Assembly (NCBI GenBank): GCA_015065615.1
Contig: SVPY01000003.1
Coordinates: 62,001-126,000 of the forward strand
DNA length: 64,000 nt
Reading direction: 5' to 3'
Origin: Oscillospiraceae bacterium
GTDB lineage: Bacteria; Bacillota; Clostridia; Oscillospirales; Acutalibacteraceae
How positions within the stretch are numbered: the stretch's first letter is position 1; each line of letters opens with the position of its first letter. The translations under genes were made by a program, and so were the position numbers. Under the pieces are notes generated by a model. The model worked only from the letters and a program-made list of their open reading frames with translations, was not told the DNA's origin and did not search any database. Shown here one piece after another: positions 31,771 through 39,279 of the stretch.

Positions 31771-34347
31771 ATGCAGGAATATAAATTCAACGTAACGGGA
31801 ATGAGCTGTGCCGCCTGCAGTGCAAGGGTGGAAAAAGCCGTAAAAGAGCTTGAAGGTATAGACGAAGTATCGGTAAACCTTCTTACAAATTCTATGATTA
31901 CAAAGGGAAGCGTTCCCCCGGAAAATATAATAAAGGCTGTGGAAAACGCAGGCTATGGCGCCTTTTTAAAAAATGAAGAAAATAAAGCATCTGAAAGGAA
32001 TACCGATGCTCTGGAAGATAAAGAGACGCCCAAACTTAAAAGAAGGCTTATTGCATCTTTAGGCTTTCTTTTGGTGCTTATGTATTTTTCTATGGGACAC
32101 ATGATGTTCGGTTTCCCCGTGCCCGAATTTTTCGAAGGAAACTTAATGGCTCTGGGCATTTTACAGCTTGTGCTTTCCGCCATAGTGATGATAATCAACC
32201 AGAAATTCTTTATAAGCGGCTTTAAAGGTGTTATTCACAGAGCACCCAATATGGATACTCTGGTGGCTTTAGGCTCGGGCGCCTCCTTTATATACAGTTT
32301 AGTTGCTCTGTTTTTAATGACTGCGGCGGAAAATTCTGAAGCTATGCACGAATTTTACCATGAATTCTATTTTGAGTCCGCGGCTATGATTTTAGCGCTT
32401 ATTACGGTAGGTAAGATGCTTGAATCAAGAAGCAAAGGCAAAACCACCGATGCATTAAAGAGCCTTATGAAGCTCAAGCCCGAAAGCGCCACGCTTTTAA
32501 TTGACGGCGCGGAAAAAAAGGTAAAAATTGATGAAGTAAAAAAAGGCGATATATTCGTAGTGCGCCCCGGTGAAAATATTCCCGTGGACGGAATTGTTCT
32601 GGAGGGCGAGAGCGCCGTAAATGAATCTGCCTTAACGGGCGAGAGTATTCCCGTGGATAAAAAGGCGGGAGACAGAATTTCTGCCGCTACCATAAACCAA
32701 TCGGGCTTTATAAAGTGCGAAGCCGAAAAGGTGGGCGAAGATACGGCTCTGAGTAAAATAATTCAGATGGTAAGCGACGCTTCCGCCACAAAGGCTCCTA
32801 TTGCAAAAATTGCGGATAAGGTTTCGGGCGTGTTTGTTCCGTCAGTTATATTAATTGCTTTAATTACCATTGTTATATGGCTTCTCTGCGGTGCTGAGTT
32901 TGGCTACGCTTTGGCAAGAGGTATTTCCGTTCTGGTTATTTCCTGCCCCTGCGCTTTGGGTCTTGCTACTCCCGTTGCCATTATGGTAGGCTCAGGTAAG
33001 GCTGCGAAAAACGGAATTTTATTTAAAACCGCAGTATCTTTGGAGGAGACAGGCAAGGCTCAGATAATCGCTCTGGATAAAACGGGCACCATCACAAAGG
33101 GTGAGCCTGCCGTAACCGACATAATTCCCGTAAAGGTAAGCGAAAAAGAGCTTCTTTCATTTGCCTACTCCCTTGAAAGAAAGAGCGAGCATCCGCTGGC
33201 AAAGGCGGTAATTAATAAAGCTATAGCGGAAAATGCTGAATATTTTGAAACGGCGGATTTCAAGAATTTACCCGGCAGCGGCGTTGAAGCAAGCTTTAAA
33301 AACAATATGCTTTACGGCGGCAGTTTTGATTTTATAGGCAAAAAGCTTAAAATCACTTTAAAAATAAAAGAAACTATCGAAAATCTTGCAAACGAAGGCA
33401 AAACCCCTCTCTTATTTGCGAAAAACAATGAGCTTTTAGGTGTTATCGCCGTGGCGGACATAATTAAAGAGGATAGCGCCGAGGCAATAAACGAGCTTAA
33501 AAATATGGGCATCCATACGGTAATGCTTACGGGCGACAATCAGCGCACAGCAAAGGCTATAGGCAGGCTTTCAGGTGTTGACGAAGTTATTGCAGGGGTT
33601 CTTCCTGAGGGAAAAGAGGCGGTTATCAAGGCTTTAAAGGAAAAAGGCAAGGTTATAATGGTGGGCGACGGCATCAACGATGCTCCCGCCTTAACAAGCG
33701 CCGATATCGGTATCGCCATTGGAGCCGGCACCGACGTTGCCATAGATGCGGCGGATATAGTGCTTATGAAAAATAGCTTAAAAGATGCGGCGGCGGCTAT
33801 AAGGCTCAGCCGTGCTTCCCTGAGGGTAATTCATCAGAATCTTTTCTGGGCGTTTATTTATAACGTTTTGGGTATTCCTTTGGCGGCAGGCGCCTTTATA
33901 GCCCTGCTTGGTTGGGAGTTAAACCCCATGTTCGGCGCGGCGGCTATGAGCTTATCGAGCTTCTGCGTGGTATCAAACGCTTTAAGGCTCAATCTTTTTA
34001 AGGTTTATGAGAGTAAAAATGACAGACCGCGAAAAAAATCCCTGAGAAAAGAAGGGGAAATATTGCTTCCCGCAAACGAAAACTGCGGTGAAAACATAAG
34101 CTGTGAATTATCGGAAACAGCCGATAAAAATATAAACGAAGGAGAAAACGAAATGAAAATTATTGAAATCGAAGGTATGATGTGCAAGCACTGCGTTGCT
34201 CACGTTAAAAAGGCATTGGAGGCTATAGGAGTTAATGCTGAAGTCAGCCTCGAAACAAACTCCGCTACAGTTCCTGCAGATAGCGATATCGAAGCCTGCA
34301 AGGCTGCTATTATTGATGCCGGATACGAAGTAACGGGCGTTAAATGA
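31771..34347 (+). CDS. copA: Copper-translocating P-type ATPase with N- and C-terminal HMA domains
   Basis: [36 protein letters not shown]-terminal [15 protein letters not shown]. Confidence 0.95.
34153..34347 (+). CDS. Possible internally initiated CopZ-like copper chaperone (in frame with copA)
   Basis: AAGGAG 34139-34144, 8 nt, ATG 34153 encoding [14 protein letters not shown]..; full HMA domain to the copA stop. Confidence 0.45.
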
Positions 34348-38076: not shown

Positions 38077-38110
38077 AAGGCAGGTCCTTTCAGGGCTTGC
38101 CTTTTCTTTT
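38077..38110 (+). terminator. Terminator after the ABC pair
   Basis: AAGGCA..TGCCTTTTCTTTTT. Confidence 0.75.
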
Positions 38111-38133: not shown

Positions 38134-38160
38134 TTGACAAAAAGGATTTTGTGTTATAAG
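38134..38160 (+). promoter_or_regulatory. Promoter for corA leader
   Basis: TTGACA 38134 and TTATAAG near 38154-38160. Confidence 0.55.
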
Positions 38161-38206: not shown

Positions 38207-38231
38207 AAGGAGATCTTTGCGAGGGCAAAGA
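38207..38231 (+). promoter_or_regulatory. Split RBS hairpin (GAGG loop) of corA leader ORF
   Basis: AAGGAG then TCTTTGC-GAGG-GCAAAGA; same module precedes der and plsY. Confidence 0.55.
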
Positions 38232-38246
38232 AAAGTCTATAGGACT

Positions 38247-38285
38247 ATGGAACCTTTACCTGAACCTAACGCGACAAGTAAATAG
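38247..38285 (+). CDS. Putative Mg2+-sensing leader peptide MEPLPEPNATSK
   Basis: ATG GAA CCT TTA CCT GAA CCT AAC GCG ACA AGT AAA TAG directly upstream of corA; acidic/proline alternation like MgtL. Confidence 0.6.
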   Translation: MEPLPEPNATSK

Positions 38286-38326
38286 CGGTACGTTTGGGTA
38301 GCTCCTTGCGTACTGCACGAAAGGAG
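38285..38326 (+). promoter_or_regulatory. Mutually exclusive hairpins controlling corA SD
   Basis: GCGGTACGT(38285-38293)/GCGTACTGC(38308-38316) competes with CTCCTT-g-CGT/ACG-a-AAGGAG (38302-38326). Confidence 0.6.
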
Positions 38327-38334
38327 TATTTATT

Positions 38335-39279
38335 ATGATCAGAATCATCAAATCCGAAGCTAATTTAATCGAAGAGCTGGAGCAGATTGAGGCAGGCGCA
38401 TGGATCGCTCTCACTTCACCCTCTCAGGATGAGCTTGAGTGGGTAAGCGAGAATTTAAGCGTTGAAATCGAAGATTTAAAAGCCGCTCTGGACGACAACG
38501 AAAGATCCCATATTGAAATTGAGGATAATTATACCCTTATCCTTGTGGACATTCCAATTATCGAGGAACGAAACGAAAAGCAGTGGTACGGCACCATTCC
38601 TATGGGTATTATCGTGACAAAAGAAAACATTATAACAGTTTGCCTTAATGATACCCCCGTTCTTACGGGTTTAATGAAGGGCAAGGTTAAAAATTTCTAC
38701 ACAGGCTGGAAAACAAGATTCATCCTCCAGATTCTTTACAGAAACGCCGCGCTCTTCCTTCAGTACCTGCGCGGTATTAACAAGAGAACTGAAATTATTG
38801 AAAAAAGGCTTCAGCAATCACCTCAGAATAAGGAGATTATTCAGCTTCTTGAGCTTGAAAAGAGCTTGGTTTACTTTACCACCTCTCTTCGTTCCAATGA
38901 AATGGTGCTCGAAAAGCTTATGAAAATTGAGACTATAAAGAAATATCCCGAGGACACCGAGCTTCTTGAGGACGTTATTATCGAGAATAAGCAGGCTATT
39001 GAGATGGTTCACATCTACAGCGGCATCATAAACAGTATGATGGATGCAGTTTCCTCGGTTATCAACAATAACGTGAACAACGTAATGAAAGTGCTTGCCA
39101 TTATCACTATCGTTCTTTCCGTGCCTACCATGATATTCAGCGCCTACGGTATGAACGTAAACGGGGCAGGTATGCCTTTTGCAAGCGAGCCATGGGGCTT
39201 TATAGCCGTTATAGGTATGTCTATTTTAATGGCGGTTATAGTTGCTATTGTATTCCTTAAATCAAAAATACTTAAATAA
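38335..39279 (+). CDS. corA: CorA family magnesium transporter
   Basis: C-terminal YGMNVNG (GMN motif) between TM segments; CorA soluble domain. Confidence 0.94.
   Translation: MIRIIKSEANLIEELEQIEAGAWIALTSPSQDELEWVSENLSVEIEDLKAALDDNERSHIEIEDNYTLILVDIPIIEERNEKQWYGTIPMGIIVTKENIITVCLNDTPVLTGLMKGKVKNFYTGWKTRFILQILYRNAALFLQYLRGINKRTEIIEKRLQQSPQNKEIIQLLELEKSLVYFTTSLRSNEMVLEKLMKIETIKKYPEDTELLEDVIIENKQAIEMVHIYSGIINSMMDAVSSVINNNVNNVMKVLAIITIVLSVPTMIFSAYGMNVNGAGMPFASEPWGFIAVIGMSILMAVIVAIVFLKSKILK

Follow-up and report, generated by a model that had tools for sequence, protein, structure and literature searches.

The corA gene of an Oscillospiraceae bacterium is preceded by a short leader ORF and four RNA segments that can pair in two competing arrangements. 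This leader probably constitutes a leader-peptide-driven translational attenuator with four segments, for which low intracellular Mg2+ is the most likely signal. The analysis covered a stretch of 64,000 nucleotides of contig SVPY01000003.1, called the window below, and all coordinates are positions within it. The features that make up the proposed attenuator are the following:

38247 to 38285, + strand: leader ORF MEPLPEPNATSK, encoding an EP-type regulatory peptide, with ATG at 38247 and TAG at 38283-38285
38257 to 38272, + strand: segment 1, leader codons pairing with segment 2, most pair probabilities being about 1.0
38285 to 38300, + strand: segment 2, partner of segment 1 or, with its part 38285-38293, of segment 3 (from folding, the helix chain, and swap tests)
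38301 to 38316, + strand: segment 3, the anti-SD CTCCTT plus GCGTACTGC (from the helix chain, swap tests, and folding)
38317 to 38327, + strand: segment 4, ACGAAAGGAGT, which holds the corA SD AAGGAG at 38321-38326 (from sequence, folding, and column comparison)
38335 to 39279, + strand: corA, encoding a CorA-family Mg2+ transporter of 314 amino acids (PF01544, E 3.8e-55)

Segment 3 has two potential partners: segment 4, which it contacts through 38301-38311, and segment 2, which it contacts through 38308-38316. Helix 3:4 joins CTCCTT (38302-38307) to AAGGAG (38321-38326). Pairing of CGT (38309-38311) to ACG (38317-38319) and the single pair 38301:38327 lengthen it. Helix 2:3 joins GCGGTACGT (38285-38293) to GCGTACTGC (38308-38316) in 9 pairs, two of which are G-U. 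Both hairpins had been proposed in an initial annotation of this DNA, and their coordinates and pairings proved correct, as did the remark that the first arm of the alternative hairpin begins on the last base of the leader stop codon: G38285 is both the final base of that codon and the initial base of the segment 2 arm. The same annotation had the two hairpins sharing 38308-38316; they do exclude each other, but only 38309-38311 are paired in both, and the rest of the conflict is topological.

When segments 2-4 are folded by themselves, helix 2:3 wins and the SD is free, which made a reading with three segments look sufficient. A further helix, absent from the initial annotation, pairs segment 1 (38257-38272) with 38285-38300, with a probability near 1 for most pairs in the ribosome-free fold. 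With this helix included, the logic involves four segments, the corA SD being hidden when 1:2 and 3:4 coexist and exposed when 2:3 forms. The chain of helices in the window has a z of -2.1 relative to 40 dinucleotide shuffles. A pseudoknot joining 2:3 with CTCCTT:AAGGAG was rejected as a candidate. Such a structure, of a type that RNAfold does not model, is formally possible and strained, as the version in the window needs a 4-nt loop over a 9-pair stem; in many homologues, the two helices compete for identical bases of segment 3.

To follow how SD access depends on leader translation, a simple model of the ribosome footprint was stepped along the leader ORF, and the openness of the corA SD was calculated by folding at each P-site codon. 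The predicted openness in the window is 0.09 when no ribosome is present. It rises to about 0.9 when codons 3-8 occupy the P site (0.92-0.94 at codons 3 and 5, 0.81 at codon 7), falls to 0.43 at codon 9, and is about 0.1 at codons 10-12 (0.11 at codons 11-12, where the probability of 3:4 is 0.94). The peptide starts with MEPLPEP, and the range in which the SD is open coincides with its codons 3-8, PLPEPN. These results agree with the earlier proposal that a ribosome at the leader stop leaves the SD sequestered. They do not support its counterpart as worded, that ribosome drop-off releases the SD: without a ribosome, segment 1 captures the arm and 3:4 forms, and opening is predicted only with a ribosome positioned over codons 3-8. 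The constrained folding that had been suggested as a check thus recovers the two hairpins and an SD hidden by a ribosome at the stop, but not its opening by drop-off alone.

We infer that the leader is translated, that ribosomes slow down at its EP codons, and that the sign of regulation is as follows. On a leader free of ribosomes, 1:2 and 3:4 would form and the corA SD would be buried (OFF). A ribosome that is slowed, stalled, or repeatedly failing at the EP codons, with its P site on codons 3-8, would cover segment 1, allowing 2:3 to form and leaving the SD free (ON). A ribosome that reads through to the stop would cover segment 2, so that 3:4 would re-form (OFF). Low Mg2+ may be what destabilizes ribosomes on such acidic and proline-containing N-termini, as it does in Escherichia coli MgtL; the identity of the transporter and the parallel with MgtL both point to Mg2+ as the probable signal.

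For a wider comparison, 80 corA loci were taken from one genome scan and more were added by searching related genomes, giving 181 in total, with corA starts curated for the locus analyses. A leader ORF of the EP-related kind was found at 126 of these 181 loci, in Lachnospiraceae and Oscillospirales, the typical forms being MESGPxP and M(S/N/K)(P/A)(D/E)Px(S/G)R, respectively. Many corA genes in class- and phylum-level samples carried leaders of the MDxDP type (MDADPKRTN, MDCDPGGSS, and MDSDPGGSR). Leaders without prolines also exist, such as MDSGSSYHAE. At the corA loci of the Hungatella/Enterocloster group and of Bifidobacterium, no leader of any of these types was seen.

The strict leader pattern was present at 55 of 73 Oscillospirales loci gathered later, versus 3.6% of mononucleotide-shuffled upstream regions. 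The leader ORFs in the dinucleotide-shuffle tests described below had partly been chosen by motif, and the signature was therefore retested on small ORFs for which SD and length were the sole selection criteria. Residue 5 was proline in 78% of these ORFs and residue 4 was aspartate or glutamate in 66%, with extra peaks at residue 2 (acidic) and at residues 3 and 7 (proline), and none at later residues. The codons of the acid-proline pair differ between loci (GAC, GAT, GAA, or GAG, followed by CCT, CCG, CCC, or CCA), and this variety of synonymous codons indicates that selection acts on the peptide. The positional signature of prolines and acidic residues at corA loci bears out the initial assignment of the ORF as an EP-type leader peptide tied to Mg2+ transport.

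At 11 loci (L158, L162, L168, L181, L183, L103, L091, L109, L083, L147, and L150), the leader ORF does not end until 10 to 112 nt beyond the start codon of corA. At these loci, a ribosome that completes the leader ought to obstruct initiation on corA, which fits a repressive role of completed translation. In a number of Oscillospirales-type leaders (L089, L094, L095, L097, L098, L101, and L107), segment 1 takes in the SD and/or start codon of the leader itself, so that 1:2 would also shut down leader translation; in L095, for example, GGATATAGTGAGCTCTGA pairs with TCAGGGCGCGCTATGTCC. Two small ORFs of a different context, with the N-termini MEPGGSS (L219) and MEPSSGS (L220), are found about 100 nt 5' of where a profile match to an MgtA-type ATPase begins, and overlap it. 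They may be EP leaders for a second kind of Mg2+ transporter.

The alternative helices recur across these loci. Scored as a chain, the overlapping helices 3:4, 2:3, and 1:2 reached p <= 0.05 against dinucleotide shuffles in 42 of 56 loci, and a second set of 56 loci, gathered later, gave a Stouffer z of -12.7; loci inside each set are related and hence statistically dependent, so that p-values here and below are indicative. In a swap test, segments were exchanged between loci, asking whether complementarity is locus-specific. Helices 3:4 and 2:3 each gave p = 5e-5, meaning that both stems of the initial annotation pass the check for co-variation across homologous leaders that it had called for. 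Helix 1:2 gave p = 2.5e-4 and showed the weakest co-variation of the three, with p = 0.018 in the Lachnospiraceae-type loci. Among 66 loci whose SD is GAAAGG, columns immediately 5' of the SD switch among all pair types together with their partners.

The dependence on ribosome position was also visible in averages over loci. In the first 56 loci, mean SD openness was 0.335 without a ribosome, 0.419 when one occupied codons 2-6, and 0.334 when it was near the stop, compared with 0.478, 0.476, and 0.526, respectively, in their shuffles. The EP-minus-end difference was +0.080, versus -0.037 in shuffles (p = 0.0018), and EP-minus-none gave p = 0.0023. The second set yielded p = 0.0007 for EP-minus-none and p = 0.0036 for EP-minus-end, with a ribosome-free openness of 0.367 versus 0.532 in shuffles. 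Individual loci are noisy, and many are without the three-state pattern in RNAfold, such as L007, L021, and L063.

Genus-wide, the locus was present in only one other genome, L082 (also gathered as L002, a single contig contained in two collections), whose corA protein is 92% identical to that of the window. The leader ORF is identical at 37 of 39 bases, segment 1 at 16 of 16, and segments 2-4 at 42 of 43. Elsewhere, identity amounts to 51 of 66 bases at the corA start, 31 of 74 in the upstream spacer, and 2 of 7 between SD and start. Conservation of the leader beyond that of the corA start and the flanking spacers supports a probable function, as judged from this sequence comparison. As the leaders within the genus are nearly identical, they provide little co-variation, and the evidence for co-variation comes from the more distant loci.

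Upstream of the leader ORF, the following features were recognized:

38134 to 38160, + strand: probable promoter, read from the sequence, with TTGACA (38134-38139), a 15-nt spacer, and the extended -10 element TGTTATAAG (38152-38160)
38207 to 38212, + strand: AAGGAG, the sole good SD 5' of the leader ORF, read from the sequence
38214 to 38246, + strand: two hairpins, 38214-38231 and 38234-38246, between this SD and the leader ATG, from folding

The promoter would place the transcript start at approximately 38166. It is identical to that of L082 at 21 of 27 bases, and is absent from the list of a strict promoter scan, which demanded a spacer of 16-18 nt. No SD lies at a normal distance from the leader ATG: AAGGAG is 34 nt 5' of it, and 4 nt 5' of an in-frame TTG at 38217. 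Either the hairpins may bridge the SD to the leader ATG, or TTG 38217 may initiate in this species only. The fold with two hairpins is retained in L082 despite just 26 of 40 identical bases over 38207-38246, and the TTG frame is interrupted by a stop in L082. A scan of the 64-kb window for further SD-led ORFs of the EP-leader type returned no other.

Within its own genome, corA of the window was the sole match in a search for close CorA proteins, no MgtE was found, and the M-box covariance model (RF00380) had no match in either the window or the genome. A glycyl radical enzyme gene (PF02901/PF01228; 39291-41279) begins 12 nt past corA and is probably on the corA transcript; its distance from corA and its start are unchanged in L082. 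At 31771-34347, the window also contains an ORF resembling heavy-metal P-type ATPases, with metal-binding-like sequences at both ends. No intrinsic terminator (a GC hairpin followed by a U-run) was found between the leader ORF and corA, and the sole terminator on the + strand, at 38077-38103, belongs to the end of the upstream gene. This favors the translational attenuation of the initial annotation over a terminator-based kind, although Rho may still have a role.

One competitor of the four-segment attenuator is the drop-off scheme, in which ribosome loss induced by the EP codons empties the mRNA, 2:3 is the default fold, and corA is switched on, with segment 1 idle. Drop-off of the MgtL type is established in E. 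coli (PMC11282234), and the fold of segments 2-4 by themselves leaves the SD free as this scheme requires. Once segment 1 is included, however, 1:2 dominates and the ribosome-free SD is closed in the window; in addition, 1:2 co-varies across loci, and the ribosome-free SD is buried beyond the level of shuffles in both sets of loci. We therefore consider this scheme unlikely. Drop-off could still switch corA on through re-initiating ribosomes that re-cover segment 1, or through co-transcriptional timing. The four-segment and drop-off models make opposite predictions for a knockout of the leader start codon.

EP and PxP codons are slow in general, which would suit a leader that senses the state of translation (the supply of EF-P, of an ABC-F factor, or of charged tRNA-Pro) rather than Mg2+. 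Precedents are the action of EttA on MgtL (PMC11282234) and the response of mgtP to charged tRNA-Pro (PMC8092293). The gene downstream is that of a Mg2+ transporter throughout, however, and acidic residue 4 is conserved besides the proline, leaving this reading a small chance of being right. Transcriptional control has even less in its favor: the nearest known corA leaders do work via Rho (PMC11552253), and leader translation might expose or hide a Rho site as in enteric corL-corA and mgtL-mgtA, with the SD pairing secondary, but the conserved 3:4 pairing is centered on the corA SD, no intrinsic terminator lies downstream of the leader ORF, and a leader of about 170 nt probably gives little room, which makes this quite improbable. 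That a structured leader precedes a Mg2+ transporter gene could also be explained by a metal-binding riboswitch with an incidental peptide. This is the least credible of the alternatives, given that there is no Rfam match, M-box included, that the primary sequence varies outside the leader start while peptide positions 2-5 are conserved with varied codons, and that the pairing relies on leader codons.

Mg2+ sensing through ribosome destabilization has been worked out in a few enteric bacteria. MgtL-like leaders before corA across Clostridia, including those of the gut bacteria Blautia and Oscillibacter, would suggest a general or repeatedly evolved Mg2+ gauge. We would put at roughly even odds the broader proposition that Gram-positive anaerobes widely sense Mg2+ through ribosome destabilization by acidic-proline N-termini of nascent peptides. 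M-x-x-[D/E/G]-P leaders would then control corA at the scale of a phylum, with the ribosome serving as the gauge, the residue positions of MgtL, a translational output, and, in the source genome, no M-box. If true, the leader would explain control of Mg2+ uptake in bacteria without a detected M-box and MgtE, like the source genome. The clostridial leaders also offer many natural variants for probing which residues and RNA pairings matter.

The M-box (ykoK) riboswitch RF00380 exerts cis-acting Mg2+ control in Gram-positive bacteria as an RNA that binds its ligand directly and has no leader peptide. The corA leader would share the cis-acting control by Mg2+, and differs in having a leader peptide in place of direct ligand binding. 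An Rfam search of the leader, at gathering and relaxed thresholds, returned matches at chance level only and no family. The published corA RNA motif has been described from gammaproteobacteria only (PMC6429828), and the open-access literature, which leaves subscription journals mostly uncovered, yielded no article on leader ORFs of clostridial corA.

The closest parallel in mechanism is mgtQ-mgtB of Salmonella, where mutants show that 1:2 and 3:4 compete with 2:3, and mgtB needs translation of mgtQ (PMC8092293). Both systems have a short ORF with early acidic residues, competition of 1:2 plus 3:4 with 2:3, the SD of a Mg2+ transporter gene hidden in 3:4, and an ON state, predicted in the case of corA, in which the ribosome covers segment 1 (PMC8092293); in the clostridial leaders, the early ORF is acidic and proline-containing and CorA replaces MgtB. 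On the other hand, mgtQ is an 8-amino acid ORF with Asp2 and Glu5 that lies intergenically in mgtCBRU of gammaproteobacteria, before a P-type ATPase gene (PMC8092293), whereas the clostridial ORF is located in the 5' leader of corA and mostly has Asp, Glu, or Gly at residue 4 and Pro at residue 5. The peptide itself is closer to MgtL, the mgtA leader of E. coli and Salmonella, whose MEPDP start has an acidic residue at 4 and proline at 5, the consensus positions of the clostridial leaders; in E. coli, ribosomes dissociate more readily at EPDP when Mg2+ is low, and the output is Rho-dependent transcription termination, not SD access (PMC11282234). CorL, the corA leader of E. coli and Salmonella, likewise combines a uORF before corA with alternative RNA structures, and its efficient translation lowers corA expression, but it acts via Rho and its conserved N-terminus has a single proline (PMC11552253). 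As with MgtL and CorL, a uORF with destabilizing acidic and proline codons precedes a Mg2+ transporter gene in the window. The likeness to mgtL and mgtQ concerns logic and peptide, and common descent is not claimed. The corA leader combines an mgtQ-like way of working with an MgtL-like peptide, but stands before corA, in a different phylum, and with a sequence of its own.
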